Shown: positions 4,178-25,235 of the stretch, piece by piece
Position numbering within the stretch: the first letter of the stretch is position 1
How the letters are laid out: every line of letters starts with the position of its first letter
NCBI RefSeq assembly: GCF_023023025.1
Contig: NZ_CP095481.1
Location: 7,205,001-7,269,000, forward strand
Length of the DNA stretch: 64,000 nt
Direction of reading: 5' to 3'
Source of the DNA: Amycolatopsis sp. WQ 127309
GTDB taxonomy: Bacteria; Actinomycetota; Actinomycetes; Mycobacteriales; Pseudonocardiaceae
Notes under the pieces: model-generated
Seen by the model: only the letters and a program-made list of their open reading frames with translations
What the model was told of the DNA's origin: nothing
Database searches by the model: none
Position numbers and translations under genes: made by a program

Positions 4178-4206
4178 GTTGGTAGCCGGTTGGTGAATCT
4201 TTGGCG
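4178..4206 (+). promoter_or_regulatory. Candidate SARP-binding direct repeats before the precursor gene
   Basis: Three heptamers are spaced exactly 11 bp apart: GTTGGTA (4178-4184), GTTGGTG (4189-4195) and TTTGGCG (4200-4206). Heptameric direct repeats with an 11-bp pitch are the known binding signature of SARP activators. A SARP regulator is encoded in the same cluster at 19777, so this is the natural operator for the precursor promoter. No clear -10 is visible downstream, as can happen at SARP-activated promoters. Confidence 0.5.
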
Positions 4207-4259
4207 GACGGAAAGGGCGGCGCGCGAACCTTCCTCCCGTCAGACGAGAGGAGGTGAAG

Positions 4260-4397
4260 ATGATGTCGGCAACCACCACCGTGCAGGCCAAGGTCGAGGC
4301 TCCGAAGGACGCCACGTTCAGCCTCGACGTGAGCGAGCAGGAACTCCTCGACGAGTTCGGTGTGCTCTCCCTGTGTGAGTACTGCTACGGCGCGTGA
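4260..4397 (+). CDS. RiPP precursor peptide
   Basis: This is a 45-residue peptide (44 if translation begins at the second ATG, 4263, which is better spaced from the perfect Shine-Dalgarno AGGAGGTGA at 4249-4257). The N-terminal half is Thr/Ala/Lys-rich. The middle FSLDVSEQELLDEF (20-33) is an acidic amphipathic leader segment with an FxLD-like element. The C-terminal FGVLSLCEYCYGA (33-45) is the likely core, with Cys39, Glu40, Tyr41, Cys42 and Tyr43 clustered. The reasons to call it a precursor are its size, a very strong ribosome site, its position first in an operon of peptide-modifying enzymes with an exporter, and the attenuator-like hairpin behind it. The cleavage site is unknown; the region around Gly34 is one option. 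Confidence 0.8.
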   Translation: MMSATTTVQAKVEAPKDATFSLDVSEQELLDEFGVLSLCEYCYGA

Positions 4398-4464
4398 CCC
4401 GGTGAGTGACCCCCCGGCTCGCGCCGCGGGGTCCGGCTCCGCACCGGAGTGACGGTTTCCCAGC

Positions 4465-4498
4465 GGGTGCGCCCGTCGCGATCGCGACGGGCGCACCC
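4465..4498. terminator. Perfect 34-nt palindrome between precursor and operon (attenuator)
   Basis: The sequence is an exact inverted repeat with 17-nt arms (GGGTGCGCCCGTCGCGA and its complement) centred at 4481/4482. It lies 67 nt after the precursor stop and 35 nt before the exporter start. It has no T-run, so partial termination or protection of the upstream mRNA end is more likely than full stop. Such a hairpin would keep precursor transcript above the enzyme transcripts, as in many RiPP operons. Confidence 0.7.
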
Positions 4499-4532
4499 AG
4501 TCTTCGACTCCCCACCCAGGAAAGGACCACGG

Positions 4533-5783
4533 ATGTCGTCGCCTGCAGTAGCGCCGAAGCGCACGGTCGCGGCCGGAGTCACGACCGCACTGTGGCTCGG
4601 CCTCGCGGTGTCCCTGCTCGGGGACAGCTTCTACCGGGTCGGCCTGACCTGGAACGCCACCACGGACGGCGGCATCGGCCCGGCCGCCCTGCTCGGCACG
4701 GCGATGGCGTTGCCGGTGGCTCTGCTGGGCATGTTCGGCGGCGTCGTGATCGACCGCTTCAACCGCCCGGGCCTGATGATCGTGACCGACGTCGTCCGGT
4801 TCGCCGTGGTGGCCGCGTTCGCCGTGCTCTTCCTCGGCAACGGACCCGGCCTGCCGGCACTGCTGGCCGGCGCCGCGGTGCTGGCGGCGTCCGGTGTCTG
4901 CTTCACCCCGGCGCTGCAGTCGTGGCTGCCCGACCTGTTCCCCGACCGCGACCGGATGATCAAGTTCGACGCGCTGTTCCTGACGACCATCAACGTCGTC
5001 GGGGTCGTCGGCCCCGCGCTGGCCGGGGCGCTGTACCCGTTCGTCGGCATGAGCGGGTTCCTCTGGTTCGACGCGGGCACGTTCGCGGTGTCCGCGGTCG
5101 CGGTCTTCTACGTCCGGAGAGCGCTTCCCGGACCCGGGACGCCGGCCCTTGCGCCGCCGCCGGAACCGCCGCGCCCCCGCCGAAATCTCCTCGCCGATGT
5201 CCGGGAAGGACTGCGGTACATCTTCGGCAACGAGGTGCTCCGCCGGCAGTTCACCGTCTTCCCCTTCATGGAAGCCGCGGCCTACTCGCTGGTCTTCCTG
5301 CTCCCGTCCTACCTGTCCGCGGCGAAGTACACCGCGAGCTGGCTGTTCGGCGCGCTCCTGGCCGCCAACGCGATCGGCCGGGTGCTGGGGGCGTGGGTGT
5401 TCGCGCACACCGGGCTGAAGCGCCGGCGGGGGCCGGTGCTCGCGGTCAACCACCTCTCCCAGGGCGTCATGCTCGGGCTCTTCGTCCTCGTCCCCGACCC
5501 CGTCGTCTGCACGGCCGCGTTCCTGCTGATGGGCCTGCCGGCCGGCGCGAGCCAGATCGCCCTGTCCTCCTGGGTCCAGACCAATGTGGACAGACAGTTC
5601 CGCGGCCGGGCGTTCGGCACCCTGACGTCCTTCGTGCAGTGGCTGATGCCGCTGGGCCCGCTGTTCTTCGGCTGGCTGGGCGCGCTGCTGGAGCCCCGCT
5701 GGGCCGTCGTGATCATCGCCGCGACCTTCTTCGCCGGGGGCGCCGCCATCGTTTCTTCCCGCGCGGTAAGGAGCCTGCAATGA
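4533..5783 (+). CDS. MFS transporter, probable RiPP exporter
   Basis: This encodes 416 residues with about 12 hydrophobic segments. ATG 4533 is preceded by AGGAAAGGA. The cytoplasmic loop after TM2 (GGVVIDRFNRPGLMIVTDVVR) fits the MFS motif A region, and the central charged loop (about residues 195-230) separates the two six-helix halves. It belongs to the enterobactin-exporter-like/DHA3-type branch by general look. Being the first gene after the precursor and overlapping the peptidase gene by ATGA, it is the best candidate for product export and self-protection. Confidence 0.85.
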   Translation: MSSPAVAPKRTVAAGVTTALWLGLAVSLLGDSFYRVGLTWNATTDGGIGPAALLGTAMALPVALLGMFGGVVIDRFNRPGLMIVTDVVRFAVVAAFAVLFLGNGPGLPALLAGAAVLAASGVCFTPALQSWLPDLFPDRDRMIKFDALFLTTINVVGVVGPALAGALYPFVGMSGFLWFDAGTFAVSAVAVFYVRRALPGPGTPALAPPPEPPRPRRNLLADVREGLRYIFGNEVLRRQFTVFPFMEAAAYSLVFLLPSYLSAAKYTASWLFGALLAANAIGRVLGAWVFAHTGLKRRRGPVLAVNHLSQGVMLGLFVLVPDPVVCTAAFLLMGLPAGASQIALSSWVQTNVDRQFRGRAFGTLTSFVQWLMPLGPLFFGWLGALLEPRWAVVIIAATFFAGGAAIVSSRAVRSLQ

Positions 5784-7507
5784 CGACGACCTCGACAACC
5801 CGTCCCGGCGCGCTGTTCCTGGAGACCGGCTGGGCCGAATCCTTCGCGGTGACCGGCGACGGCCGGGTGGCGGTCGCGTGGAGCACCGCCGACGGCCCGC
5901 GCGTCCACACCGTGCCGGGTCCGGCGAGCCCGCCCGAACCGGCGAACACCCTGCCGAGCATCGACCAGGCCGGCCTCTCCGGCGGCCCGCGGCGGATCGC
6001 CTTCTGGGCGCAGCTGGCCGACGAGGACAACCGGTTCGTCCTGTTCACCGCCGTCCCCGGGGAAGCACCGGTGCGGACGGCGATCGAGGCCCCGCGCCAG
6101 CCCTGCGCCCTCGCCTGGGCCGGGCCGGACCACGTCGTCACCACCTGGCAGACCGCCGACGGCCCGGTGCTCGCCCGGGTCGCCGTGACGCCGGGAGCGC
6201 GTCCCGAGACCCTGTGGTGCCTGCCGGCCTCGCCGCGGTGGCTGGACCCGGTGCCCGACGTCGCGCCGGACGGCCGGATCGTGCTGACCGTCGCGTCCGA
6301 GACCGGCCAGGACATCGTGGTGCTCGACCACGGCGTGGTCACCACCCTGCTCGCCGGCAACCGCAGCGCGGCACCGGCCCGGGCGCGCTGGAGCCCGGAC
6401 GGCCGGTCGGTCGTCGTGCTCGTCCGGCGGCGGCGGGCCACCGAAGCCCGGCTGATCGACCTGACCGCCGGCACCATGGAGGTCCTCGACGGGCCCGCGC
6501 CGACCGACGTTCCGGTGTGGAACGGCGACGGGACCAAGCTCGCGTTCGCCAGCCACGACTGGCCCGTCACCCGGCTGTACGTCCACGACCTGCCGAGCCG
6601 GACGCTGACCGAGGTGCCTGCCCCGGCGGGCACCTGCGCCGAAGCGCCGCAGTGGCACGGCGACGACTGCTACTTCCGCGTGCTGGGCCCGGACCACCCG
6701 CCCGCGGTCCGGCGGTGGCGCCCGGGCGCCACCGATGCGCTACCGGTGACCCCGCCGGCGACGGTGTCCCGGCCGGTCTCGCCGTCCGTGGTCCGCTTGC
6801 CCAGCCGGGAAGGCTTCGACCTGCCCGCGCTCGCCTACGAGCCGTGGATCCCGGACCGGGGGACGGTCGTGATGCTGCACGGCGGACCCGCATCCTGCTG
6901 GCGCAACGGCTGGAACCCGGTCCTGCTAGACCTGCTCGGCGCCGGCTACCGCGTGGTGCTGCTGGAAACCCGCGGCACGACGTTCACCGGCTGGCCGGTG
7001 CCCCCGGTGCCAGTCACCGAGCACGGCGTCCGCGAAGTCGAGGACGTCGCCGACAGCGTCGCGGCCCTGATCCGGCTCGGTCTCGCCCAGTCCGGCCGGA
7101 TCGTCCTGGTCGGCCACAGCCACGGCGCGTTCATCGCCTACCGCGCGTCGCTGGCGCTGCCGGAGGTCGCGGGCGTGATCACGACGAGCGGCTACCTGCA
7201 CCCGGCGGTGCTGGCGGGCAGCGGCGACCCGGAGGTGCACCGCTTCGCGGCCGCGGCGTTCGCGGACCGGGCCTGGGCCGGTGACCCGGCGGCCGCGCTG
7301 CCCTCCCGCTGCCCGGTCCTGTCGGTGCACGGCGAACGCGACAAGCAGGTGCCCGCCGGCGACGCCGAGGCGATGTTCGCCCGGCTCGACGGCGCCGGGC
7401 ACGCATGGCTGCTGCTGGCGAACGACGACCACAGCTTCCGCATCCGGCGCAACGCCGCCCGCTACGCCGCCGCGGCGCGGGACTTCCTGGGGCGGGTGCT
7501 GGCATGA
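5780..7507 (+). CDS. S9-family prolyl-oligopeptidase-like peptidase
   Basis: This encodes 575 residues. The first ~380 residues show repeated strand-rich WSPDGR / WNGDGTKLAF segments of the beta-propeller that gates S9 peptidases. The C-terminal alpha/beta hydrolase domain has the oxyanion HGG (VVMLHGGPAS) and the triad S447 (GHSHG), D521 (HGERDKQVP) and H551 (NDDHSF). There is no signal peptide, so it acts in the cytoplasm. The gating propeller limits S9 enzymes to short peptides, which suits cleavage of a 45-residue precursor leader. That role is inferred from context. It overlaps the genes on both sides by 4 nt. Confidence 0.85.
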   Translation: MTTTSTTRPGALFLETGWAESFAVTGDGRVAVAWSTADGPRVHTVPGPASPPEPANTLPSIDQAGLSGGPRRIAFWAQLADEDNRFVLFTAVPGEAPVRTAIEAPRQPCALAWAGPDHVVTTWQTADGPVLARVAVTPGARPETLWCLPASPRWLDPVPDVAPDGRIVLTVASETGQDIVVLDHGVVTTLLAGNRSAAPARARWSPDGRSVVVLVRRRRATEARLIDLTAGTMEVLDGPAPTDVPVWNGDGTKLAFASHDWPVTRLYVHDLPSRTLTEVPAPAGTCAEAPQWHGDDCYFRVLGPDHPPAVRRWRPGATDALPVTPPATVSRPVSPSVVRLPSREGFDLPALAYEPWIPDRGTVVMLHGGPASCWRNGWNPVLLDLLGAGYRVVLLETRGTTFTGWPVPPVPVTEHGVREVEDVADSVAALIRLGLAQSGRIVLVGHSHGAFIAYRASLALPEVAGVITTSGYLHPAVLAGSGDPEVHRFAAAAFADRAWAGDPAAALPSRCPVLSVHGERDKQVPAGDAEAMFARLDGAGHAWLLLANDDHSFRIRRNAARYAAAARDFLGRVLA

Positions 7508-9075
7508 CGACCCTGGACTACGACGTCGTCGTGATCGGCGGCGGACCCGGCGGCTCGACCACGGCGACGTTCCTCGCCCGGGCCGGCGCGCGGGTGCTGG
7601 TGCTGGAGGGCACCCGGTTCCCGCGCTGGCACATCGGCGAGTCGCTGCTGGCCGCGTCGATGCCGGTCCTGGAGGAGCTCGGCGTGCTGCCGCAGCTGGA
7701 GCGGTTCAACCGCAAGCTCGGCTCGCTCTGGGTCTGGGGCGCCTCGCCGTCGCTGATCAGCCTGGAGATGCCGCGCCCGGGCTTCGCGTTCCAGGTGCAG
7801 CGCGAGCACTTCGACCAGCTCCTGCTCGACAACGCGCGTGAAGCCGGCGTCGACGTCCGCACCGAGACCTGGGCGCGGCAGCCGAGGTGGGACGACACCG
7901 GCCGGATGACCGGGCTGCTCGCCCAGGAAGCCGGCGGCGCGACCTTCGAGGTGCGGGCGCGCTACGTCGTCGACGCCAGCGGCCTGTTCCAGTTCCTGCC
8001 GAAACGCCTGGGCCTGCCGATGGACCTGTTCGGCCCGCAGCGGGCGGCGGTCACCGTCTACTGGGACGACGCGCTGCGCCCGGACGCGCCGCACACCGCC
8101 GACGTCATCAGCGAAGCCTGCGCGGACGGCTGGATCTGGTTCATCCCCTTCGCGGACGGCCAGACCGGCGTCGGCTTCGTCGGCGACGCCGAGGACATCA
8201 CCGGCGCGCCCGCCGAGGTGTTCACCCGGCAGATCGCCAGTTCGCAGCTCGTGCGGCGGCTGCTGGCGAACGCGACCATGGCGCGGAAACCGCGGCTGCT
8301 CCGCTACACCAACCACACCGTGGCGACTCCACTGTGGACGGACGGCTACCTGCTCGTCGGCGACACCGCCGCGTTCGTCGACCCGCTGTTCTCCACCGGC
8401 ATCAACGCGACGCTCTACTCGGCCTCGCTGGCCGCGGCGGGCGTCGCGTCGGTGCTGGCGGGCGACCTGCCCGAGGACAGCGCGGCGAAGTGGTACGACG
8501 AGCGCGTCCGCGGGCACTACCGCCGCACCACCGAAATGACCAAGCTGCTCTACGCGGCCCACCCCGGCGGCACCCGGTTCTGGCGGGCCCGTTCGCTCGA
8601 GCACCTGACCGACGGCCAGGCGGAGGAACTGCTGCGCCACATCGGGGCCGGCAGCGTCGAGCTGTTCGCCAAAGCGGAGGCGGACGGCTCGATCCGGCTC
8701 CCGGCGGCGGTGCGCCGGCTGCTGCCCGAGTTCACCTCGGCGCTTCCGCCCACCCGCCTGCCCGAGCACACCGTGCTGTCGTTCGCCGACGAGGTCGAGC
8801 TGCGCCAGGACTGGACCCGGGCGGGCGGCCGGCTGGTGCCGGCGACGCGCGTGGCGCACCGACGGCGTCGCACGCACGAAATCGACTTCTCCGGCGGCAC
8901 GCCGGGGCAGCGGCTGCTCGCGGCGGTCGACGGCCGGCGCGACCTCCGCAGCCTGCTCGAAGCGTCCACATCGGACGGTGCCCGCCGGCAGCACCTGGCC
9001 CTGCTGGCCGGGGCGCTGGTGAAGGCGGGCATCTTCCGCGCGGCCGGGGCCGGCCTGCTCCCGGCGGAGAGGTGA
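7504..9075 (+). CDS. Flavin-dependent halogenase with extra C-terminal domain
   Basis: This encodes 523 residues. The N-terminus has the FAD dinucleotide motif GGGPGG (12-17), GESLL (45-49) and a lysine (K71 in FNRKLGSLWVWG) at the place of the catalytic lysine of flavin halogenases. W210-I-W-F-I-P215 is the WxWxIP halogenase signature, and DPLFSTG closes the flavin site. These features separate halogenases from plain monooxygenases. The pattern is closer to phenol/pyrrole halogenases than to free-tryptophan ones, so the core tyrosines are plausible targets. Residues ~440-515 add a compact helical domain (GTPGQRLLAAVDGRRDLRSL…LVKAGIF) resembling PqqD-type winged helices. The flavin reductase at 16662 can supply reduced FAD. 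Confidence 0.85.
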   Translation: MTTLDYDVVVIGGGPGGSTTATFLARAGARVLVLEGTRFPRWHIGESLLAASMPVLEELGVLPQLERFNRKLGSLWVWGASPSLISLEMPRPGFAFQVQREHFDQLLLDNAREAGVDVRTETWARQPRWDDTGRMTGLLAQEAGGATFEVRARYVVDASGLFQFLPKRLGLPMDLFGPQRAAVTVYWDDALRPDAPHTADVISEACADGWIWFIPFADGQTGVGFVGDAEDITGAPAEVFTRQIASSQLVRRLLANATMARKPRLLRYTNHTVATPLWTDGYLLVGDTAAFVDPLFSTGINATLYSASLAAAGVASVLAGDLPEDSAAKWYDERVRGHYRRTTEMTKLLYAAHPGGTRFWRARSLEHLTDGQAEELLRHIGAGSVELFAKAEADGSIRLPAAVRRLLPEFTSALPPTRLPEHTVLSFADEVELRQDWTRAGGRLVPATRVAHRRRRTHEIDFSGGTPGQRLLAAVDGRRDLRSLLEASTSDGARRQHLALLAGALVKAGIFRAAGAGLLPAER

Positions 9076-9081
9076 GTTCCG

Positions 9082-10437
9082 ATGCACCACAAACACATCG
9101 TGCTCGAGCGGGCCCAGCTGGGCGTCGCGGACGTCCCGGCGCGCGAGCTGGGGCTCGACGACGTGGGCGGCCCGCTCAGCGCGTACCTGCTCCGGCCGTA
9201 CCTGGACCTGAGCGAGTTCGCCGACGGGCCCAGCGAGACGACGTCGGTCGAGGTCGCGTTCCGCCAGCTCGCCGCGCCGGACGCGCCCCGGCTGATGATC
9301 CAGACCCATCCCGGGCGCGGCCTGCGGACCGCGCTCGTGCGCGAAAGCGGCCTGCCGGCCTACGGGATCACCCGAGCGCGGGAGCTGCCCGAGCGGCTGC
9401 GCACCGACCGGTGGCGGCAGCTCGTCGAGTGGACGCGGGCCCGGCTGCTGCCGCTGGGCCAGCGGCTGCGGCTCGCGACGCTGCTGAACACGCTGGGCCT
9501 GTTCGGCGAGACCGTGGAGCTGTTCACCGGCCGGATCGGGGACGTCGAGAGCGGCGACGGCGTCGCGACGGCGTTGAGCATGCAGCTCGCCATCGCCCGG
9601 TTGCGCATCGATCCCTCGGCCGACACCGAGCGGGTGAACGCGGCGACCCTGCGGCAGGCCGCGGCGAACGACCGGGGCGACCGGTACGTCCGGCTCGGCG
9701 CCGCCCTCACCCTGGTGGTCCTGGCCGCCAAGCGGCGGGACATCGAGGAGGTCCGGCACTGGCGCGAGGTCGCCGAATCCCAGTACGCACTGCTCGATCC
9801 CGGAGCCGGGCTGCCGGACGTGTTGTACGCCAGCACGTTCTGGCGCGCCGTGTGCTACCTGCCGCACCTGCTCGGCGACCGCGTGCGGACCACCGAGGAG
9901 CTCGACGCCGCCGAGCACCACGCACTGGCGTTCCGGCCCCGCGACAGCACCGAGTGGATGGTCTGGGCCGCCAACATGAACCCGCTGCTGGAGACCCGGA
10001 TGCGGGCCGCGCTCGACACCGGCGACCGCGACGGCGGGTGGGCGCGCCTCTCGCAGCTCGCCGAGCTCGAACCGCTCAGCGCGAAGGTGCGCATCCACGT
10101 CGGCAAGTTCCACCTCGACGACGGCGCGCCCGAGAAAGCGCTCCCCGAGCTGCGGCGGGCGATCACGCTGGGCGCGCCGTTCACCGGCCTGTCCTGGTAC
10201 CTGACGGCCCGCTGCCTCGACCGGCTCGGCGACCACGCGGGCGCGTTGCGGGCCTACGCCGAAGCCGTGCGCGCGGATCCGGCCAGTGTGGACGCCCGGC
10301 TGCGCATCCACGAACTGGCCGGGGCCGCGGCCGGCGGGCTCGCGGCGTTGCCCGCCTGGGCCGGCGGCTCGCTGGGGGAGATCACCACCCGGCTGAAGGC
10401 GCCCGCCCGCACGACGGCGAAGGAGCAGGCACGATGA
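9082..10437 (+). CDS. TPR-like helical-repeat protein 1 of the RiPP operon
   Basis: This encodes 451 residues, preceded by GGAGAGGTGA. The protein is almost wholly helical. The C-terminal third has TPR-type repeats (KVRIHVGKFHLDDGAPEKAL, then GLSWYLTARCLDRLGDHAGA). The N-terminal ~110 residues (SAYLLRPYLDLSEF… GRGLRTALVRESGLPAYG) have no family that I recognise but are shared with the next gene. There are no catalytic motifs, signal or membrane segment. A scaffold or peptide-presenting role for the modifying enzymes is the simplest guess. It overlaps the following paralogue by 4 nt, implying coupled translation. Confidence 0.75.
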   Translation: MHHKHIVLERAQLGVADVPARELGLDDVGGPLSAYLLRPYLDLSEFADGPSETTSVEVAFRQLAAPDAPRLMIQTHPGRGLRTALVRESGLPAYGITRARELPERLRTDRWRQLVEWTRARLLPLGQRLRLATLLNTLGLFGETVELFTGRIGDVESGDGVATALSMQLAIARLRIDPSADTERVNAATLRQAAANDRGDRYVRLGAALTLVVLAAKRRDIEEVRHWREVAESQYALLDPGAGLPDVLYASTFWRAVCYLPHLLGDRVRTTEELDAAEHHALAFRPRDSTEWMVWAANMNPLLETRMRAALDTGDRDGGWARLSQLAELEPLSAKVRIHVGKFHLDDGAPEKALPELRRAITLGAPFTGLSWYLTARCLDRLGDHAGALRAYAEAVRADPASVDARLRIHELAGAAAGGLAALPAWAGGSLGEITTRLKAPARTTAKEQAR

Positions 10438-11768
10438 GACAGCGAGTGCTGACCGCGACGCAGTTCCTCGAGGAGCACGACCTCGTCACCCCGGAGACCG
10501 GGACGCTCTCGGGCCACCTGCTCCGCCCGTTCCTCGACCTCGGCGGGCCCGGCGGGCCGGTCAACGCGAAGGCCGCCGCCTACGTGGGGGAGAGCGTCGC
10601 CGGACCGGAGCCCGCTGCCGACGGCTGGATCGCGCCCCAGGGCAACACGAAACGGTCCCTGCGGACGGCACTGATCCGCGAGACCGGCCTCGCGAGCTAC
10701 GACGTCACCTGGCCGGGCGAGCTGCCCGAAACCGCGCGGAGCCCGCACTGGCAGGCGCTGTGCGACGCCGTCGACGCGTGGGACGAGCTGGGCGCGTTCC
10801 GGCGTTACCAGGTGATCTGCGCGCTGTACAAACTGTGCCTGTTCGACGCGGCCGTCGCCCTCGGGGACCGCCTCGGGCCGCCCGGCGAGTTCACCGCGCT
10901 GAGCGAGCTGCGCGTCATCGGCGCGCGGTCCAAGCTCGGCGAGTCCGTCCACGACCTGGTGCCGCGCACGCTGGCGGTGCTGGCGCAGCCGCCGGCGTCC
11001 CCGCGCGTGCGGCTCGCCGTGGCGGTCAACCTGGCCATCCACTACGGCCGGGCCACCCGTGACCGCGAGGCCACCGTCGAGTGGTCGGACCGGGTGCTCG
11101 CCGAAGCCGCCGCGCAGCACGCCGAGGGGAGCCCGCGGGACCTCCTGATGGCGAGCATCACCCTGCGCGCGGCCAGTTTCGGCCCGTTCGTGCGCGGGGA
11201 CCACGACGCCGTGGCGGCGATGCTCAAGCAGGCCGAAGCCCACGCCGTCGACGTCACCGGAGCGCCCGGGGTGCCACTGGTGCTGGCCGACGAGAACCGC
11301 TACGCCGTCCTCGAGACGATCACCAACGCCGCGGTCGCGCGCGGGGACCGCGAGACCGCGCTCGCCGCCGCCACCGCACTGACCGGGCACGACCCCCGGG
11401 AACCGCGGGCGTGGCTGCAGCTCGGGGCCGTGCACTGGGACGACGGCCGGACGCAGGACGCGCTGGACGCCTACCGGACCGCGGCCGTGCTGGGCGCGCC
11501 CTTCACCGGAACCGCCTGGTACTGCACGGGTCGCTGCCACGAGGCGCTGGGCGACCTCGACCAGGCGGCGCAGGCCTACGCGAACTCCGTCGCCGCGGAG
11601 CCGCTGGGCATCACCGCGCTGCACCGGCTGCACGGTGTCGCCGACCGGACCGGCCAGCGGTTCCTCGCCGGCTGGGCCCGCGACCGCCTCCACGTGCTGC
11701 ACCACCGGCTGGCCGGCCCGGCCGCGCCGACATCGTCCACGACCGTCCGACAGGGGGCCCGAGCATGA
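10434..11768 (+). CDS. TPR-like helical-repeat protein 2, paralogue of the preceding gene
   Basis: This encodes 444 residues. Shared blocks prove common descent with the protein at 9082: LLRPFLDL versus LLRPYLDL, SLRTALIRETGLASYDVT versus GLRTALVRESGLPAYGIT, and GAPFTGTAWYCTGRCHEALGD versus GAPFTGLSWYLTARCLDRLGD. The C-terminus carries TPR units (EPRAWLQLGAVHWDDGRTQD). Overall similarity is modest, so the pair is old and may form a heterodimer. Function is unknown. It overlaps the first HExxH gene by ATGA. Confidence 0.75.
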   Translation: MRQRVLTATQFLEEHDLVTPETGTLSGHLLRPFLDLGGPGGPVNAKAAAYVGESVAGPEPAADGWIAPQGNTKRSLRTALIRETGLASYDVTWPGELPETARSPHWQALCDAVDAWDELGAFRRYQVICALYKLCLFDAAVALGDRLGPPGEFTALSELRVIGARSKLGESVHDLVPRTLAVLAQPPASPRVRLAVAVNLAIHYGRATRDREATVEWSDRVLAEAAAQHAEGSPRDLLMASITLRAASFGPFVRGDHDAVAAMLKQAEAHAVDVTGAPGVPLVLADENRYAVLETITNAAVARGDRETALAAATALTGHDPREPRAWLQLGAVHWDDGRTQDALDAYRTAAVLGAPFTGTAWYCTGRCHEALGDLDQAAQAYANSVAAEPLGITALHRLHGVADRTGQRFLAGWARDRLHVLHHRLAGPAAPTSSTTVRQGARA

Positions 11769-13018: not shown

Positions 13019-13023
13019 GCGTC

Positions 13024-17207: not shown

Positions 17208-17787
17208 CGTGATCCGCAAACGGCGGATGGTGCGCTCGTTCACCGACGAGCCGCTCGACGACGACACCGTGCGGCGGCTGCTCGACGTGGCCAACCGCGG
17301 GCCGTCGGCCGGGTTCAGCCAGGGTTACGCGCTGCTCGCGCTGCGGACCGCGGAGGAACGCGCGGAGTTCTGGCTCGCGCTCGGGCAGGACCCGGCGAAG
17401 GGCAACCCGGTCAAGCGCGCGCCGCTGATCGTCGTCCCGCTCGCCTCGAAGCAGGCGTACCTGGACCGCTACACGCAGGCGGACAAGAACTGGACCGACC
17501 GGGCGGAGGACCGGTGGGCGGTGCCGTACTGGTACATCGACACCGGGTTCACGGCGCTGCTGACGCTGCTGGCGACCGTCGACGCCGGGCTGGGGGCGAA
17601 GTTCTTCGGCATCCTCCCGCCGGTGCTGGACTCGTTCCGCGAGCGCTTCGGCATCCCCGCCGAGTACACGCCGGTCGGCGCGATCGCCATCGGGCACCGC
17701 GACCACCGCCTCGACCCGGACCCGCCGTGGCGGCCCGCGATCGCCCGCAAGCCCCTGGAAGACGTCGTGCACTGGGGAAAGTGGTGA
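17194..17787 (+). CDS. Nitroreductase-family FMN enzyme
   Basis: This encodes 197 residues of usual length. The N-terminus FRDVIRKRRMVRSFTDEPL and RGPSAGFSQGYALL form the FMN-binding start of the nitroreductase fold, and GLGAKFFGI is the later conserved block. Family members reduce or oxidise small substrates with FMN, and RiPP relatives oxidise azolines to azoles. No cyclodehydratase is visible here, so azole formation is doubtful. Dehydrogenation of another modified residue, or a second flavin reductase activity, are alternatives. Confidence 0.82.
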   Translation: MEFRDVIRKRRMVRSFTDEPLDDDTVRRLLDVANRGPSAGFSQGYALLALRTAEERAEFWLALGQDPAKGNPVKRAPLIVVPLASKQAYLDRYTQADKNWTDRAEDRWAVPYWYIDTGFTALLTLLATVDAGLGAKFFGILPPVLDSFRERFGIPAEYTPVGAIAIGHRDHRLDPDPPWRPAIARKPLEDVVHWGKW

Positions 17788-18836: not shown

Positions 18837-18868
18837 ACCGTTGTTTCCCCGAGAGAGAGGAAGTGCTG

Positions 18869-19594
18869 ATGGACGCGACCACTTCGGTCCGCTCCCGGCG
18901 CCGGAAAGCCAACCTGATCTTTGTCGGCGTGCTCGTGCTGGCCGTGGTGGCCGGCGCGCTCGTGTGGCTCTTCCGGACGCCCCAGGAAGTGCACGCGCAA
19001 TCCGTTTCCGCGAGTTATCCGGCGGTCCGGCAGGACGCCGTCGTCACCGCGGGAAAGGATTCCGCGCCGGTGACGATCGACGTGTACGAGGATTTCCTCT
19101 GCCCGCACTGCGCGGAATTCGAGAAGAAGTATTCCGAGCGGATCCGGACCGAGCTCGACGCGGGCCGGCTCAAAGTGCGTTATCACGAACTGCCGATGCT
19201 GCAGCGGAAACCGAACAGCGACCGCTATTCGCTGCGCGCGGCCAACGCGGCGTTGTGCGCGGCCGATCAGGGCGGGTTCGTGTCCTACCACGAGACGCTG
19301 ATGCACAACCAGCCCCCGGAGGCGGCCCCGGTCTTCGACGACCCGAAGCTGATCGCGATCGGGCACGACCTCGGGATCACCGCGCCGGAGTTCGCGGCCT
19401 GCGTCACCGGGCAGACCCACTTCGCCGAGGTCGAGACCGCCTTCGAGCAGGTGAAGGCCGAGCCGGCGTTCCAGGTCGACCGCCCGGACGGCAACGGGCG
19501 CGCCTTCCGCGGCACGCCGACCATCGCCCTCGGCACCCGCGTGCTGGACACCGACGACGAGCGGTGGCTGGCGAGCCTGGGGGTCGCGAGCTGA
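18869..19594 (+). CDS. Membrane-anchored DsbA-like thiol oxidoreductase
   Basis: This encodes 241 residues. ATG 18869 has GAGAGAGGAAG upstream. A basic N-terminus and one transmembrane helix (about residues 15-36) place the catalytic domain outside the membrane. The thioredoxin fold begins APVTIDVYEDFLC with active site C78-P-H-C81, and GTPTIAL supplies the cis-proline. It belongs to the DsbA/MSMEG_5308-like actinobacterial group. It is the last gene of the enzyme operon, and the core peptide has two cysteines three residues apart, so it may form, break or isomerise a disulfide in the exported product. Confidence 0.83.
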   Translation: MDATTSVRSRRRKANLIFVGVLVLAVVAGALVWLFRTPQEVHAQSVSASYPAVRQDAVVTAGKDSAPVTIDVYEDFLCPHCAEFEKKYSERIRTELDAGRLKVRYHELPMLQRKPNSDRYSLRAANAALCAADQGGFVSYHETLMHNQPPEAAPVFDDPKLIAIGHDLGITAPEFAACVTGQTHFAEVETAFEQVKAEPAFQVDRPDGNGRAFRGTPTIALGTRVLDTDDERWLASLGVAS

Positions 19595-19659: not shown

Positions 19660-19689
19660 GTCAGGCGTTCGCGGCGCTCGTCGAATCAT

Positions 19690-19735: not shown

Positions 19736-19776
19736 GCCGGATCCAAGCAGGCTGATCGACTTTGGGGGTTCTTCAG

Positions 19777-22695
19777 ATGCTGAGGTTTTTCGTATTGGGG
19801 TCCTTGGCGGTACACCGGGACGGCCGAGCCATCGAACTGGGACCACCCCGCGCGCGCCAGACGCTGGCGACCCTGTTGATGAACCCGGGACGGACGGTGT
19901 CGGTCGACCGCCTCGTGGACGTGCTCTGGGCGGAGGAACCGCCCGCCCGGGCCCGGGCCGCCATCCAGGTCTACATCTCCCAGGTGCGGCGCGCGCTCGG
20001 CGCGGATCCCCGGGAGTACGTCGTGACCACCGGTTCCGGCTACCGGCTCGACGTCGACCCCGAAGCCGTCGACGTCGGCCGGTTCCGCAGCCTCGTGCGG
20101 CTGGCCCGCCGGTCCGACGACCTGCACCGGGTCGCCGGCGACCTGCGCACGGCGCTCGCGCTGTGGCGGGACCAGCCGCTGGTCGGCATGGCCGAGCACG
20201 TCCGCGAGGCGCTCTGCGAAGGGCTGGAGAGCGAACGGCTCGACGCGCTCGAACGCCGCGTCGAGTCCGATCTCGCGGTCGGCGGCCACGAAGAACTGCT
20301 CGCGGAGCTCTTCACGCTGGTCCGGGAGAACCCGCTGCGCGAACGGCTGCGCAAGGCCCTGATGTGCTGCCTCTACCTGTCGGGCCGCAAGCCCGAGGCC
20401 CTGGAGTTCTTCCGGGAGACCCGGCGGCACTTCATCGACGAATTGGGCGTGGAACCGGGCGCGGAGCTGCGGAACCTGCACGCGGCGATCCTGCGCGACG
20501 ACCTGGGCGACTTCTACGCGGCCCCGGCCGCCCCGGCGGGCCCGCGGCCCACCCCCGCGCAGCTGCCCGCGCCACCGCCGTCGTTCGCCGGCCGCGCCGC
20601 CGAGCTGACGCGGATCCTGCACGCCGGGCACGGCCGGACGGAGGCCCCCCGGATCGTCTCGATCGAGGGCATGCCCGGCAGCGGCAAGTCGGCCGTCGCG
20701 CTGTACGCGGCGCACCAGCTGGCCGACGACTACCCCGACGGGCAGCTCTACCTCGACCTGCGCGGGACCGGCGAGACACCGCTGCCACCCGGTGACGCGC
20801 TGGAGCACCTGCTCGGCGCCCTCGACCACCCGGTGCCCGCCGACCCCGCCCGGCGGGCCGCCGCGTTCCAGGAGGTGCTCGCCGACCGCCGGATCCTGCT
20901 GCTGCTCGACGACGCCGCGTCCGCCGCCCAGGTGGCCCCGCTGGTGCCGGCCGCCGGGCGATGTCTGGTCCTCCTCACGGGCCGGCACCGGCTCACCGGG
21001 ATCGACCGGCTGGTCCGGCTGCCGCTGCACACCCTGCCCGAGGACGACGCCGTCGCCCTCCTGACCGCCGGTGCCGGGCACCCCGACGCCGGCGGGCGCG
21101 CGGCCCTGGGCGAGCTGGCCCGCAAGTGCGGCCTGCTCCCGCTGGCCCTGCGCGCGGCCGTCGAGCACCTGGCGTACGGCACGCCGGAGGCGGTCACGGC
21201 GGAACTGACCGACCCGCTGCGGCAGCTCGGCGGGGTGGCGGCCGCGTTCGGGAGCTCCTTCCGCGCGCTCACCGGCGCCACCCGGGAGCTGTTCCTGCTG
21301 CTCGGGCTGCACCCCGGCGCGCCGATCGAAGAGGGCGCGGCGGCGGCGATGGCGGGCGTGACCACGGCCCGGGCGCGCGGCCTGCTGGCGGACCTCGCCG
21401 ACGCGGGCCTGCTCCGCGCGGAGCCGCCCGGCTTCACGATGCACGAACTGGTCCGGCGCTACGCCGCCGGGCTGGCCGAGCGCCACATCCCGCACCGGAC
21501 CCGGGCCGCGGTGGTCGACCAGCTCGTCGAGTACTACCTGGACGAGGCGGACACCACCGTCCTCGTCCCGGCCCCGCGGGGCGCGTCCCCCGGCCCCGGC
21601 GAGCCGGGCGCCTGCGGCAACCGGCTCCCGGCCCTGCTGGCCCTGGCCGCCCTGGACTCCGACGTCGCGCGCCCGGCCCGGTCGATCGCGCTGGCGCGGG
21701 CCTGGGCCCGGCACGCGGAGCTCGGCGGCGACCTCGACGCGGCCAAGGCGCTGACGCTGCGGGCCCTGCAGACCTCCCGGCGCACCGGGGACCAGCGCGG
21801 GGAAGCCGATGCCCTGCACGACCTGGGCCGCTTCGAGGCCCGGACCGGCACACTCGACGACGCCCGCACGCACCTGGTCGACGCGCTGGTGCTCCGGCGG
21901 GACCTGGGCGAGGTGCGGGGCGAGGCGCAGACGCTGTCGGTGCTGGCCGAGGTGGCCCGCCTGCTGGGCCCGACGCGGGACGCGGTCGACTTCTGCCGTC
22001 GCGCGCTGAACGTCCACCGGCACGCCGGCGACCGCGAGGGCGAGGGGTACGCCCTGCGCGTCCTCGGCGAGATCTCGCTCGACCGGGGCAAACCGGCCGA
22101 AGCCGTCGTGCACCTGCGCACCGCGCTCGGGCTGGTGGCGGAGACCGGGAACGAAACGCAGCACGGCCTGATCCTCGGCGCGCTCGGCCGGGCGCACGCC
22201 CTGCTGGGGCACCGGCCCGCCGACGTCACGCACCTCAACCGGGCCCTGGGCCTGTTGAGCCGGCCGCACCACCGGGTCGAGCGGGGGATCGTGCTGACCC
22301 ACCTCGCCGACGTCCACCGCGACGCCGGGCGCGTCTCCGACGCGCTCCACTGCCACCAGCGCGCCCTCGCCCTGGCGAAGATCACCGGGGAGCCGCTGCT
22401 GGAAGCGGGCGCGCTCAACAGCTTCGGCGAAACCCTCTACGACGCGGGGGACTTCGACGGCGCGCGGCAGGTGCACGAGTCGGCCCTGCAGCTGGGCCGC
22501 CGGACCGGCGTGCGGGCCGTCATCGCCCGGGCGCTGAACGGCCTCGCGCGAGCCGCGCTCGCCGCCGGCAGCCCGGAGAAGGCCCATTGGCTCTGGCGCA
22601 GCGCGCTGGGGGAGTGCGAGACGCTCGATTCCGCGCTCACCGCGCGGATCCGGGCGTGCCTGTCGGCGGGGGGCGCCCGTGAGGTGACCCGGTGA
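19777..22695 (+). CDS. SARP/AfsR-family regulator with NB-ARC and TPR domains
   Basis: This encodes 972 residues from ATG 19777, since the in-frame TTG at 19762 has no ribosome site. Residues 1-95 form an OmpR-type winged helix (FFVLGSLAVHRDGRAIEL… YISQVRRALGADP), 100-245 a bacterial transcriptional activation domain, ~265-560 an NB-ARC ATPase with P-loop G298-M-P-G-S-G-K-S305, and ~620-970 TPR repeats (ALHDLGRFEARTG, VLRVLGEISLDRG). Large SARPs of this kind activate one cluster, usually their own. The 11-bp repeats before the precursor gene are its likely target. Its stop overlaps the antiporter start. Confidence 0.92.
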   Translation: MLRFFVLGSLAVHRDGRAIELGPPRARQTLATLLMNPGRTVSVDRLVDVLWAEEPPARARAAIQVYISQVRRALGADPREYVVTTGSGYRLDVDPEAVDVGRFRSLVRLARRSDDLHRVAGDLRTALALWRDQPLVGMAEHVREALCEGLESERLDALERRVESDLAVGGHEELLAELFTLVRENPLRERLRKALMCCLYLSGRKPEALEFFRETRRHFIDELGVEPGAELRNLHAAILRDDLGDFYAAPAAPAGPRPTPAQLPAPPPSFAGRAAELTRILHAGHGRTEAPRIVSIEGMPGSGKSAVALYAAHQLADDYPDGQLYLDLRGTGETPLPPGDALEHLLGALDHPVPADPARRAAAFQEVLADRRILLLLDDAASAAQVAPLVPAAGRCLVLLTGRHRLTGIDRLVRLPLHTLPEDDAVALLTAGAGHPDAGGRAALGELARKCGLLPLALRAAVEHLAYGTPEAVTAELTDPLRQLGGVAAAFGSSFRALTGATRELFLLLGLHPGAPIEEGAAAAMAGVTTARARGLLADLADAGLLRAEPPGFTMHELVRRYAAGLAERHIPHRTRAAVVDQLVEYYLDEADTTVLVPAPRGASPGPGEPGACGNRLPALLALAALDSDVARPARSIALARAWARHAELGGDLDAAKALTLRALQTSRRTGDQRGEADALHDLGRFEARTGTLDDARTHLVDALVLRRDLGEVRGEAQTLSVLAEVARLLGPTRDAVDFCRRALNVHRHAGDREGEGYALRVLGEISLDRGKPAEAVVHLRTALGLVAETGNETQHGLILGALGRAHALLGHRPADVTHLNRALGLLSRPHHRVERGIVLTHLADVHRDAGRVSDALHCHQRALALAKITGEPLLEAGALNSFGETLYDAGDFDGARQVHESALQLGRRTGVRAVIARALNGLARAALAAGSPEKAHWLWRSALGECETLDSALTARIRACLSAGGAREVTR

Positions 22696-24017
22696 CCGGC
22701 GTGCCCCTGGTCTTCGCCGACCTCGTGCTGATCCTCGTGCTGGCCCGGCTCTGCGGCGCGGTCGCGCTCCGGCTGGGGCAGCCGCCGGTGATCGGCGAGA
22801 TCGTCGCGGGTCTCCTGCTGGGGCCGACGCTGTTCCACGGCGCGGTCGCCGGGACGCTCGTCCCGGCGGCCGCCCGGCCGACCCTGAGCGCGCTGGCCGA
22901 CGTCGGGGTCGCGCTGTTCATGTTCGCCGTCGGGTTCGAGCTGGACCACGCGCACCTGCGCCGCGCCACCGGCTCCGCGATCGGGCTGTCGGTGGTGAGC
23001 ACCCTGCTCCCGCTGGGTCTCGGCGCCGGGCTCGGTGTCGTGCTGATCGGCGGGCAGCACCCGCGCAGCCCGCTCGGGTTCGTGCTGTTCCTCGGCGCGG
23101 CGATGGCGGTCACCGCGTTCCCGGTGCTGGCCCGGATCCTCACCGACCGGCGGTTGCAGCACACCGCGCTCGGCCGGCTCGCGCTGGCGACCGCGTCGAT
23201 GAGCGACGTGCTCGCCTGGTCGTTGCTCACGGTCGTGGCCGCCATCGCGCAGCCGGCGGGGGCCGGCCCGTGGCGGCTGCTCCTCGTCGTCCCGTTCGTC
23301 GCGGCCCTGGTCGCGCTCCGGCCGGTGCTGCGGTGGGCGCTGTGGCGCGAGCGGGGCGACCGGGCGCGACGGGTGCCCGCGGACCGGCTGACGGTGGTGT
23401 TCGTCGGCGTGCTGGCCGCCGGCTGGATCACCGAGTTCCTGGGCCTGCACCTCATCTTCGGCGCGTTCCTGTTCGGCGCGCTGCTCCCGCGCGGCGACTC
23501 GGCCGGCGCCCGCGCGGAGCTGGCCGGCTACGCCGACAAGATCGGGAAGCTGCTGCTGCCGGTGTACTTCGTCGTCGCCGGCCTGCAGGTCGACCTTTCC
23601 GGCGTCGGCGCCGCGGGGATCCTGACGTTCGGGCTGATCCTCCTGGTGGCGGTCACCGGCAAGTTCGGCGGTGGTTTCCTCGGCGGCCGGCTGGTCGGGC
23701 TGGACACCCGCGACGCCCTCGGGATGGGGGCGTTGATGAACACCCGCGGCCTCACCGAGCTGGTGGTGCTGAGCGTCGGGCTCCAGCTCGGCGTCCTGAG
23801 TGGAGCGCTGTACTCGATGATGGTCGTGATGGCGATCGTGACGACGGCGATGACCGGGCCGCTCCTGTCGCTGCTGGGCATCGGCGAGCCGGGATCGTTG
23901 CCGGACACCGGAAATCTCCGGGCGGCCGGAACCGGGAGAAGCCGGGCGAATCGGTGGTCGCGTCGTTCGCCGGGGCCGCGGCGCACCGTACACTTCGGAC
24001 CGAGAGCCGGACGGTGA
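22692..24017 (+). CDS. CPA2-type cation/proton antiporter
   Basis: This encodes 441 residues with about 12 membrane helices, from GTG 22692 overlapping the SARP stop. LGQPPVIGEIVAGLLLGPTL at the start, the AMAVTAFPVLARIL segment and MNTRGLTELVVLSVG near the end are typical of KefB/GerN-like sodium or potassium/proton antiporters. The last ~45 residues are a basic, probably unstructured tail (GRSRANRWSRRSPGPRR). Translational coupling to the regulator suggests joint expression with the cluster. Its link to the peptide product is not evident; it may aid immunity or pH balance. Confidence 0.88.
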   Translation: MTGVPLVFADLVLILVLARLCGAVALRLGQPPVIGEIVAGLLLGPTLFHGAVAGTLVPAAARPTLSALADVGVALFMFAVGFELDHAHLRRATGSAIGLSVVSTLLPLGLGAGLGVVLIGGQHPRSPLGFVLFLGAAMAVTAFPVLARILTDRRLQHTALGRLALATASMSDVLAWSLLTVVAAIAQPAGAGPWRLLLVVPFVAALVALRPVLRWALWRERGDRARRVPADRLTVVFVGVLAAGWITEFLGLHLIFGAFLFGALLPRGDSAGARAELAGYADKIGKLLLPVYFVVAGLQVDLSGVGAAGILTFGLILLVAVTGKFGGGFLGGRLVGLDTRDALGMGALMNTRGLTELVVLSVGLQLGVLSGALYSMMVVMAIVTTAMTGPLLSLLGIGEPGSLPDTGNLRAAGTGRSRANRWSRRSPGPRRTVHFGPRAGR

Positions 24018-24029
24018 GCGGGGGACACG

Positions 24030-25235
24030 GTGAGCGGTATCAGGGTTCTGGTGGCGGGAGCGAGCATCGCGGGGCCGGCGCTGGCCCACTGGCTGCGCCG
24101 GCGCGGGGCCGAGGTGACCGTGGTCGAGCGGGCCCCCGGGCTGCGGCCCGGCGGGCAGGCGGTGGACGCGCGCGGGGTGACCAAGGAGGTCATCCGGCGG
24201 ATGGGGCTGGACGCGGCGGTGCGCGCGGCCCGCACGCAGACCGCCGGCGCGCACACCGTGGACGCCGACGGGACCGTGCTGGAGACCTTCAGTGCGGAGG
24301 ACGACGGCGGCGACGGGTACATCTCGGAGATCGAGATCCTGCGCGGGGACCTGTCCCAGGTGCTCTACGACGACACCCGCGACGGCGTCGAGTACCTCTT
24401 CGGCGACCGGATCGCCGAGCTCATCCAGGACGACGCCGGTGTCGACGTGACCTTCGCGGGCGGCGTCCGGCGGCGCTTCGACCTCGTGATCGGGGCGGAC
24501 GGGCTGCACTCGGCGCTGCGGGCGATGGTCTTCGGACGGCGCGAGCGGTTCGTCCGCCACCTCGGGCTCGTGCTCGCTTTCTACAGCGTGCCCGACGAGT
24601 TCGGGCTGGATCGCTGGCTGCTCGACCACCAGGACCGCGCGTCCGGGCGCTCCGCCAGCCTGCGGCCCATCGGGGACACCACCCGGGCGATGGCCATGTT
24701 CTCCTTCCCCGCGGCCGAGTTCGACGTCGACTACCGCGACATCGCGGCCCAGAAGGACCTGCTGCGCGAGCGGATGTCCGGCCTGGGCTGGCTGGCCCCG
24801 CGGATCCTCGCGCACCTGGACGACACCCCGGACTTCTACCTCGACCAGGTCGCCCAGGTGGTGCTGGACCGCTGGTCGAGCGGCCGGGTGGGGCTGCTCG
24901 GGGACGCCGCGTTCAGCGCGTCGCCGATGTCCGGGCAGGGCACCGGGCTGGCCCTGGTCGGCGCCTACCTGCTGGCCGGGGAGCTGGCCGCCGCCGGCTG
25001 GGACCCGGCGGCCGGGTTCGCCGGCTACGAACGGCGGATGCGGCCGTTCGTCGAGGCCAACCAGGAGATCGGCCGGTTGCACGTGCGCAGCCTCGCGGTC
25101 CCCGGGCCGGACGACGAGCCGAGCGAGGAGCCCGACATGGAGGCGCTCACCGAGCTGGTCGAGCGGGCGATCAACGGCGTCGAGCTGCCCGACTACGCGG
25201 GTGTGCCGGACGCCGGGGCCTCGGTCACGCCGTAG
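24030..25235 (+). CDS. FAD-dependent monooxygenase (TetX/PHBH-like)
   Basis: This encodes 401 residues. VLVAGASIAGPALAHWLRRRG is the FAD-binding GxGxxG variant, DLVIGADGLHSALR is the DG motif, and GLLGDAAFSASPMSGQGTGLAL is the GD motif. The set is that of TetX-like aromatic hydroxylases. It starts 12 nt after the antiporter and so may share its transcript. It could tailor the peptide or inactivate an aromatic drug; the sequence does not decide. Its 3' end overlaps the convergent LLM gene by 43 nt, marking a probable cluster border. Confidence 0.88.
   Translation: MSGIRVLVAGASIAGPALAHWLRRRGAEVTVVERAPGLRPGGQAVDARGVTKEVIRRMGLDAAVRAARTQTAGAHTVDADGTVLETFSAEDDGGDGYISEIEILRGDLSQVLYDDTRDGVEYLFGDRIAELIQDDAGVDVTFAGGVRRRFDLVIGADGLHSALRAMVFGRRERFVRHLGLVLAFYSVPDEFGLDRWLLDHQDRASGRSASLRPIGDTTRAMAMFSFPAAEFDVDYRDIAAQKDLLRERMSGLGWLAPRILAHLDDTPDFYLDQVAQVVLDRWSSGRVGLLGDAAFSASPMSGQGTGLALVGAYLLAGELAAAGWDPAAGFAGYERRMRPFVEANQEIGRLHVRSLAVPGPDDEPSEEPDMEALTELVERAINGVELPDYAGVPDAGASVTP

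Follow-up and report, generated by a model that had tools for sequence, protein, structure and literature searches.

Which product is made by an operon that sets a very short open reading frame ahead of an E1/ThiF-like adenylating enzyme, three HExxH proteins and a halogenase-like flavoenzyme? This question is raised by a 64,000-nucleotide stretch of DNA from Amycolatopsis sp. WQ 127309 (hereafter the window; bases 7,205,001-7,269,000 of an 11.13-Mb single-contig genome, GC content of the window 73.5%), in which positions 4260-19594 hold a dense operon on the + strand. This operon is very probably devoted to a ribosomally synthesized and post-translationally modified peptide (RiPP), the general mark of which is found here: a short precursor with conserved leader and core lies beside maturases. 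The RiPP class concerned probably has no characterised member. Judged from the sequence, the Tyr-rich tail of the precursor appears to become a small molecule that is heavily oxidised and probably chlorinated. A few other actinobacteria bear nearly the same enzyme mix.

A Conserved Precursor Peptide

The head of the operon carries three features.

4249..4254, + strand: AGGAGG ribosome-binding site of the precursor, seen in the sequence
4260..4397, + strand: precursor peptide of 45 amino acids (aa), MSATTTVQAKVEAPKDATFSLDVSEQELLDEFGVLSLCEYCYGA, conserved in related clusters, no match in Pfam or NCBIfam
4465..4498, + strand: hairpin with a 15-bp stem and a 4-base loop between precursor and exporter, from folding

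Two in-frame ATG codons lie downstream of the AGGAGG, at 4260 (45 aa) and 4263 (44 aa), and the GC content per codon position of the frame (0.60/0.38/0.89) is coding-like. Three further clusters that hold both an E1-like and a HExxH gene were found, in Nonomuraea cypriaca (locus L048) and in two genomes denoted G1007 (L121/L135) and G1505 (L147). Their precursors are a 40-aa frame, MEQDDKKVETPSEFTLETHEEQLLEEFGTLMSAEYNYMAQ, in N. cypriaca, MDELRNGVELPESEEALLADFGVLVAAEYDYSLGG in G1007 and MSATEKANAPVAETEFSLNASESELLEEFGVLLAAEYNYQAQ in G1505. Together with the window peptide, these four share a leader LLx[DE]FGxL, a tail EYxY and a position at the head of the cluster. For all six pairs among them, 0 of 2000 shuffles matched the alignment score. 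Because the window precursor beats 2000 of 2000 shuffles against each of the three foreign peptides, we judge that it is not a chance frame. Trp is absent from the four peptides, and Tyr is the sole aromatic residue of the window core.

The leader motif occurs in one of the 212 small frames of the window. Among 5084 other small frames of the fetched loci (the nine loci with clusters under study excluded), it occurs in two, both of them copies of a precursor from Streptomyces. No second precursor copy was found in the own genome, where the next best match has an E value of 1.08. The Streptomyces precursor, MDAEQITEVEVETDELAEEFGLTVSGVAYYAPAV, has the leader element EEFG and a tail, SGVAYYAPAV, without Glu. 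Its alignment scores were equalled by 9 (window), 13 (G1505), 6 (N. cypriaca) and 368 (G1007) of 2000 shuffles; its presumed kinship to the E1-type peptides is therefore less secure and draws on gene content and position. The sequence-only reading that had drawn attention to the locus would have fallen with a frame not conserved in related clusters. The frame is kept in the three further E1 clusters and in three Streptomyces genomes.

The 135 bases 3' of the precursor (4398-4532) contain the hairpin at 4465-4498, and a strong hairpin stands at this place in five of the five clusters folded (z-scores -3.7 to -5.8). A hairpin behind the precursor gene is a usual means of yielding more precursor than enzyme, and that of the window is probably a read-through attenuator.

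Gene Content of Related Clusters

Downstream of the hairpin, the operon encodes the following proteins.

4533..5783, + strand: MFS exporter (PF07690, 112.2 bits)
5780..7507, + strand: S9-like propeller / alpha-beta hydrolase, candidate leader peptidase (PF00326, 45.6 bits; PF12697, 46.8 bits)
7504..9075, + strand: FAD-dependent halogenase-like enzyme (PF04820, 109.7 bits; 3e1t, E 1.2e-54; motifs WxWxIP and FxxPxxSxG)
9082..10437, + strand: TPR protein 1 (PF13432, 32.7 bits; family alignments)
10434..11768, + strand: TPR protein 2 (PF13432, 50.0 bits; BTAD, PF03704, 24.7 bits, cut-off 22.1)
11765..13018, + strand: putative aKG-HExxH peptide hydroxylase 1, HExxH1 (HETSH; TIGR04267, 77.2 bits)
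13024..14316, + strand: putative aKG-HExxH peptide hydroxylase 2, HExxH2 (HEHSH; TIGR04267, 103.1 bits; in the tree, in a clade that includes Streptomyces ones)
14313..15563, + strand: putative aKG-HExxH peptide hydroxylase 3, HExxH3 (HEAAH; TIGR04267, 85.4 bits)
15560..16678, + strand: E1/ThiF-like adenylating enzyme (PF00899, 121 bits; MccB and PaaA best solved matches)
16662..17207, + strand: flavin reductase, probable FADH2 supplier (PF01613, 129.5 bits)
17194..17787, + strand: nitroreductase-family flavoprotein (PF00881, 59.8 bits)
17784..18836, + strand: beta-lactamase-like serine hydrolase (PF00144, 168.4 bits)
18869..19594 (alternative in-frame start GTG 18833), + strand: DsbA/thioredoxin-like protein (PF13462, 69.7 bits)

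All operon elements listed in the sequence-only reading were located. Its statement that nearly all genes overlap holds for nine pairs (MFS/S9, S9/halogenase, TPR1/TPR2, TPR2/HExxH1, HExxH2/HExxH3, HExxH3/E1, E1/flavin reductase, flavin reductase/nitroreductase, nitroreductase/serine hydrolase). It does not hold for halogenase/TPR1 and HExxH1/HExxH2, which are 6 and 5 bases apart, nor for the precursor, which is followed by 135 bases. The DsbA-like gene overlaps its predecessor only with the start at GTG 18833.

The three HExxH proteins of the window were aligned, and a search with this alignment against a collection of genome contigs (84,980 species) gave four loci, one in N. cypriaca and three in Streptomyces (L049-L051). 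The N. cypriaca locus has the gene order of the window (MFS, TPR, TPR, HExxH, HExxH, E1), and its E1 is 44% identical to that of the window. Searches with TPR profiles gave the clusters of G1007 and G1505. In the family of G1007, 32 of 250 sampled genomes have some TPR-profile match at E 1e-10, and in its genus one of eight does, namely G1007 itself; in the genus of N. cypriaca, 6 of 54 genomes have one at E 1e-30, G1505 among them.

The MFS gene, the TPR pair, HExxH and E1 are present in all four E1+HExxH clusters (window, L048, L135, L147), and the halogenase and flavin reductase in three of the four. The co-occurrence of precursor, E1, HExxH and halogenase proposed as a check on the sequence-only reading is found to this extent. 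Other components vary: HExxH is present in three copies in the window, two in L048, one in L135 and three in L147. The peptidase or hydrolase is S9 in the window, M16 in L048, L135 and L147, and M3 in the three Streptomyces. Methyltransferase genes occur in L135 and L147 only, and among the loci compared the window alone has both a DsbA-like gene and a CxxC core. The Streptomyces version (L050, L051 and L049 with L160) consists of TPR, M3 peptidase, one HExxH and MFS, and the stretches examined gave no match to E1; L049 stops before the TPR gene and the precursor, both of which were taken from L160 of the same genome. Conversely, the E1 sister clusters L122, L123 and L149 have no HExxH match, and their peptides end in ILSYEY, ILTYEY and ILTYEE. 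In all three, the peptide lies beside E1 and TPR, which are joined in L122 (8708-16353) and L123 by genes for a cupin/JmjC protein, a B12-radical SAM enzyme and a P450.

The genome searches covered 1,982 genome slots in all, repeats included. The E1 query matched in 32 of 150 related genomes. In the 19 other loci of about 4 kb examined, no HExxH gene was seen, and their proteins were set aside as apparently generic ThiF proteins. The HExxH2 query matched in 133 of 390 genomes of the window's family, its own included. Beyond the window's own, the matches listed are weak (at most 57.8 bits), nearly all to the C-terminal domain only, and include no orthologous cluster; nor was one found among the matches listed in plasmid searches with the E1, HExxH and TPR proteins. 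The first TPR profile, run on 396 genomes of the phylum, matched in the own genome only. A class-wide TPR search matched in 3 of 335 genomes, the only new one being G1719 (L161), where a HExxH match, an E1 match and a precursor of the LLx[DE]FGxL type are all absent. Finally, 31 TPR-matching places were fetched (14 + 17, weaker places omitted) and scanned: one has a HExxH match (L121) and three have an E1 match (L121, L122, L123).

A Proposed Pathway

From the observed gene set, precursor conservation, motifs and co-occurrence, we infer the reactions, their order and the cleavage site as follows. The ribosome would make a 44-45-aa precursor whose leader ends at about LLDEFG and whose core is about VLSLCEYCYGA, and the TPR proteins would hold it for the maturases. 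The [M+H]+ of VLSLCEYCYGA in its unmodified form is 1220.533, and that of CEYCYGA 808.264. With ATP, the E1-like enzyme would adenylate a carboxylate of the bound precursor, most likely the Glu side chain of EYxY. An internal nucleophile would then attack the activated carboxylate with loss of water, giving an imide if it is a backbone amide and a macrocycle if it is a side chain; in the window, a core Cys could form a Glu-Cys thiolactone, as described for GrcB in the available parts of the IndF paper. The three aKG-HExxH enzymes would hydroxylate core residues, and the FAD halogenase, supplied by the flavin reductase, would chlorinate one or both core Tyr. Hydroxylation may precede halogenation, by analogy with VhaA as far as its description was accessible. 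The DsbA-like protein would act on the CxxC pair, which is unique to the window core among the members. The S9-type peptidase would cut off the leader and the MFS protein export the product. We hold this mechanism with moderate confidence at the level of enzyme families, and with less for the exact target of E1 and for the chlorine.

The E1-Like Enzyme

The best solved matches of the E1-like enzyme are MccB and PaaA, and about 120 residues precede its ThiF domain, at the place of the leader-binding domain of these two. A profile comparison with a set of plasmid ThiF proteins gave a probability of 99.9% over 287 columns; the Pantoea member of this set adjoins a TauD-type dioxygenase. All four E1s have Arg173 and Lys186, which are in register with the MccB Arg and Lys and are spaced like R174 and K187 of PaaA, a correspondence that the end points of the alignment to PaaA fit. 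By this comparison, the adenylation domain keeps the ATP-site Arg and Lys of the ThiF/E1-type RiPP enzymes. The TOMM leader-binding model gives 20.4 bits for the window E1 and 43.7 bits for the sister E1 of L122, the only one above the cut-off of 36.9.

In the accessible sections of the IndF paper, adenylation of a carboxylate is common to the ThiF-like RiPP enzymes, and the nucleophile that attacks next differs between them. According to the available part of a 2025 review of ThiF-type RiPPs, PaaA modifies two Glu residues in its precursor and needs R174 and K187. Because PaaA acts on Glu and GrcB forms a Glu-Cys thiolactone, we consider it most likely that the conserved Glu is activated at its side chain. 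The C-terminal residue favours the side-chain carboxylate as well, since it varies across the seven E1 clusters (A, Q, Q, G, Y, Y, E). A tail Glu is present in seven of the seven E1 clusters with a known peptide and absent from the E1-less Streptomyces tails; that E1 tracks the Glu is suggestive only.

The possibility that E1 activates the C-terminal carboxylate instead, as MccB or EnfB do, is a variant of the same scheme with which its odds overlap, and we consider it the less probable one, at well under an even chance. The product would be a nucleotide conjugate, an imide or an amide, and the conserved Glu a recognition or hydroxylation site. MccB as best solved match speaks for this variant, as do the C-terminal activation by EnfB and the joining of Trp to a C-terminal Ile by IndF, both from the available parts of the review and the IndF paper. 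It is less compatible with C-terminal residues that differ where the Glu is constant, and with the absence of Glu from the E1-less Streptomyces tails.

The Halogenase-Like Enzyme

The motifs WxWxIP and FxxPxxSxG, which we take to be halogenase motifs, are present in all three halogenase-like proteins. The leading solved relatives are 3e1t (presumably CndH) and 8zop, both annotated "Halogenase", then 3nix (flavoprotein/dehydrogenase), ChlB4, CmlS and PltA; Trp halogenases score far weaker than the phenol- and pyrrole-type enzymes (CmlS, PltA). CmlS is the top NCBIfam label for the other two halogenase-like proteins. Because the four peptides hold no Trp, Tyr is the expected target.

A second variant of the scheme, about as doubtful as C-terminal activation, would make this FAD enzyme a peptidyl Tyr hydroxylase and the product DOPA-like or cross-linked and free of chlorine. 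LodB/GoxB maturase models do score with the window enzyme, and a QhpG model heads its NCBIfam list (below). The solved relatives argue the other way, with 3e1t at E 1.2e-54 against 1e-9 for the peptidyl-Trp dihydroxylase 7ctq, although the third of them, 3nix, is a flavoprotein/dehydrogenase. So do the two motifs kept in three of three proteins, a comparison made within the halogenase-like proteins. The modified peptide foreseen by the sequence-only reading (chlorinated, hydroxylated, carboxylate-modified) fits the enzyme families, with the reservation that chlorination could be a further hydroxylation.

The aKG-HExxH Proteins

All three window HExxH proteins, as well as every relative scanned, pass the curated cut-off (40 bits) of TIGR04267, the NCBIfam model of aKG-HExxH-type peptide beta-hydroxylases. 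The window proteins score 77-103 bits in this comparison with family models, which the sequence-only reading had called for. The HExxH motif is kept in 11 of 11 aligned proteins. HExxH2 and HExxH3 are 39% and 32% identical to HExxH1. In the tree, HExxH2 shares a clade with two Streptomyces proteins, a single HExxH protein from N. cypriaca and another from G1505 (support 95/98). This suggests that a single hydroxylase was ancestral and that further copies were added later; several other forks of this tree are weak and two rows are long.

It is improbable that these proteins cleave the precursor instead of hydroxylating it. HExxH is the classical zinc-peptidase motif. For PflC and PosC of the aKG-HExxH family, the accessible part of PMC12636437 describes oxidative backbone cleavage besides hydroxylation of Gln and, for PflC, proteolytic activity without leader. 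Against cleavage stand the match of all proteins scanned to the curated hydroxylase model, the solved-structure matches, which are only ChlH and one radical-SAM-annotated chain, and the fact that every cluster has a gene of its own for a peptidase or hydrolase (S9, M16 or M3).

Observations Weighing Against the Scheme

Several observations count against the pathway as drawn. The highest NCBIfam score of the halogenase-like enzyme, 170 bits, is to the model of QhpG, a peptidyl-Trp hydroxylase; this lies under the QhpG cut-off of 240, and no NCBIfam cut-off is passed. Flavin-reductase matches occur in L049, L051 and the E1 sister loci, in all of which no halogenase was found; service to a halogenase is therefore not necessary. 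In the 21 kb of L048, neither halogenase nor flavin reductase was found. What this locus has instead is a gene for a PhyH-type dioxygenase (3619-4743) ahead of the precursor and, at the end of the operon, one for a HemN-like radical SAM protein (15078-16412), which overlaps with the M16 gene and may contribute a step that the window lacks. Our confidence in the mechanism is no higher because of these two N. cypriaca genes and of the QhpG label. As to E1, its first ~63 residues fall outside the alignment with the plasmid ThiF proteins, and its N-terminal part alone reaches a probability of 0.3% in profile comparison. The association of E1 with Glu comes from few lineages, the three Streptomyces peptides, which differ at one residue, counting as one, and the sister-cluster peptides were chosen by conservation alone. 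Finally, three HExxH copies do not imply different targets.

Relation to Known RiPP Classes

The operon was compared with the available portions of PMC12636437, PMC13060819, PMC12707348, PMC12250964, PMC12615548 and PMC12150305. A class already characterised with this enzyme set, the other finding on which the sequence-only reading would have failed, was not encountered in open-licence full texts (subscription literature lay mostly outside the scope), and the class is likely to have no characterised member.

The closest systems are microcin C7 (MccB) and pantocin A (PaaA), together with GrcB, EnfB and IndF, in which an E1-like enzyme with the ATP-site Arg and Lys likewise stands beside a short precursor. 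In the excerpts available, pantocin A clusters also carry a 2OG-Fe oxygenase, and IndP is an M16 peptidase, as in three relatives of the window. The cores of ThiF-type RiPPs (EEN, C-terminal Asn, WWIVI or WYFI) differ from that of the window, which also has the aKG-HExxH enzymes, the halogenase-like enzyme and the TPR proteins in addition. With a tail CEYCYGA, neither an EEN nor a C-terminal Asn core, the pantocin A and microcin C classes proper were rejected. The sections of the ThiF-type review deal only with the microcin C, pantocin A, GRC and enterofaecin types, and the terms HExxH, TPR and halogen have no occurrence in the review. The accessible part of the IndF paper leaves several RRE-ThiF network clusters with RiPP-like neighbourhoods unassigned, and some of the present genes may be among them, nameless.

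ChlH, PflC/PosC, PesO (nitrilobacillin) and BipH (biphenomycin) belong to the same hydroxylase family and act on gene-encoded peptides. As described in the excerpts, aKG-HExxH pathways pair the hydroxylase with a radical SAM, MNIO or asparagine-synthetase-like enzyme, whereas the window operon has three copies with E1 and a halogenase-like enzyme. Among the 17 proteins encoded at 4260-25235, Pfam searches (limits E 1 or E 0.1, depending on the protein set) gave no match to LanC, YcaO, radical SAM, DUF692/MNIO, ATP-grasp or asparagine synthetase. This agrees with the sequence-only reading, which had seen no lanthionine synthetase, YcaO, radical SAM, ATP-grasp or lasso cyclase. Lanthipeptides and YcaO/TOMM peptides were rejected on this ground. 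So were the cyclophane/FxsB type with HExxH (although the N. cypriaca operon does end in a HemN-like radical SAM gene) and, as far as their accessible descriptions go, the biphenomycin, Pfl and nitrilobacillin types, the window having only a separate nitroreductase. A lasso peptide was rejected as well: neither a cyclase nor a transglutaminase-like peptidase was matched, and only the S9 protein bears a weak lasso isopeptidase label (NCBIfam, 21.5 bits, below the cut-off of 400). Lasso peptides are marked by an asparagine-synthetase-like cyclase and a transglutaminase-like peptidase.

FAD-dependent halogenases are found in the RiPP clusters of NAI-107 (MibH), SrpI and chlorolassin (lasso ChlH), as in the window. 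MibH reportedly acts on Trp. SrpI and the lasso halogenase also act on Trp, according to the available part of PMC12615548. The window-type cores have Tyr and no Trp, and their halogenase-like enzyme is nearer to the CmlS and PltA types than to Trp halogenases. A parallel to hydroxylation followed by halogenation is VhaA of glycopeptide antibiotic tailoring, which in the same excerpt (PMC12615548) requires a beta-hydroxy-Tyr in the peptide prior to chlorination; its substrate is nonribosomal, which makes this an analogy only.

If the proposed pathway is correct, the known RiPPs gain a class with a peptidyl-Tyr halogenase, where the RiPP halogenases compared, as far as accessible, act on Trp. 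ATP-dependent carboxylate chemistry would be combined with oxidation by non-haem iron on a core some ten residues long, and hydroxylated, chlorinated Tyr, as in glycopeptides, would come within reach on genetically encoded, readily varied peptides. The interest is high because the prediction can be tested directly by co-expression.

A Wider Group of TPR-Associated Clusters

The two TPR proteins of the window are 34% identical, and their family is what stays constant in sister clusters whose maturases differ. As a search handle, it led to further clusters with precursors of 25 to ~60 aa, easily missed in annotation. L126 (8659-14487) has a 25-aa peptide of type MEVTWDLGEVDESAEEFDVLGTKSY beside YcaO, TPR-family, MFS, AHSA1/PDZ and S9-like genes, and is a candidate very short YcaO-RiPP cluster sharing the TPR protein. 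The same type of peptide, with its EEFDVLGTKSY tail, occurs in L124, L125 and L128, and in a version longer at the start in L132. Peptides of type MAYETWESLEDEVEISTGAADCWTCLIDDAGV precede the TPR gene in seven of the nine Streptomyces-family loci examined: L105, L106, L107, L110, L114, L116 and L117 have a conserved ~32-aa peptide with a TGAADCWTCLIDD-like tail before it. In L106 (8391-12572), the partners are MFS, an M17 aminopeptidase and an FMN oxidoreductase, and the TPR protein is fused (862 aa). No other likely leader-binding protein was recognised in the small HExxH clusters of Streptomyces, which leaves the TPR protein and the N-terminal half of the HExxH protein as candidates for this role.

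Tentatively, and with somewhat less than even confidence, we propose that a RiPP superfamily of actinobacteria has gone unrecognised and that the operon of the window represents one of its branches. The superfamily would be defined by ~430-aa TPR proteins, sometimes doubled or fused, which would read very short leaders for interchangeable maturases. The leader element EEF[GD] would be common to two branches. The maturase sets would be E1, HExxH and halogenase in the window; E1, JmjC, B12-radical SAM and P450 in the sisters from the Nonomuraea genus; YcaO in others; and a flavin oxidoreductase in Streptomyces. If this holds, the branch of the window would include a RiPP halogenase that acts on Tyr and an E1 that acts with aKG-HExxH oxygenases; neither was found described.

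A peptide-pheromone system, with the TPR proteins as RRNPP-like sensors beside a secondary-metabolite regulator, is very improbable: TPR protein, short peptide, MFS and peptidase or hydrolase do co-occur in every version annotated and the BTAD match of TPR protein 2 lies just over its cut-off, but Pfam finds no DNA-binding domain in the TPR proteins, an overlapping operon with three peptide hydroxylases, an E1 and a FAD halogenase would hold enzymes for which plain signalling has no use, and sister clusters change their maturases while keeping the TPR protein.

As a separate observation, L130 (4656-18215) has three TPR-family places, a MatE exporter, an S9 peptidase and a B12-radical SAM gene; a precursor was not found in it.

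Genes Downstream of the Operon

Three further genes follow the operon; the span given in the sequence-only reading covers them, but its gene list does not name them.

19777..22695, + strand: AfsR-like SARP regulator with BTAD, NB-ARC and TPR (PF03704, 123.1 bits)
22692..24017, + strand: CPA2-type Na+/H+ antiporter (PF00999, 178.8 bits)
24030..25235, + strand: FAD monooxygenase, tetracycline-destructase-like (PF01494, 84.1 bits)

Membership of the FAD monooxygenase in the cluster is uncertain, and no counterpart was found in the E1+HExxH relatives. An antiporter gene is present both in the window (22692-24017) and in the cluster of G1505 (L147:1941-3197).

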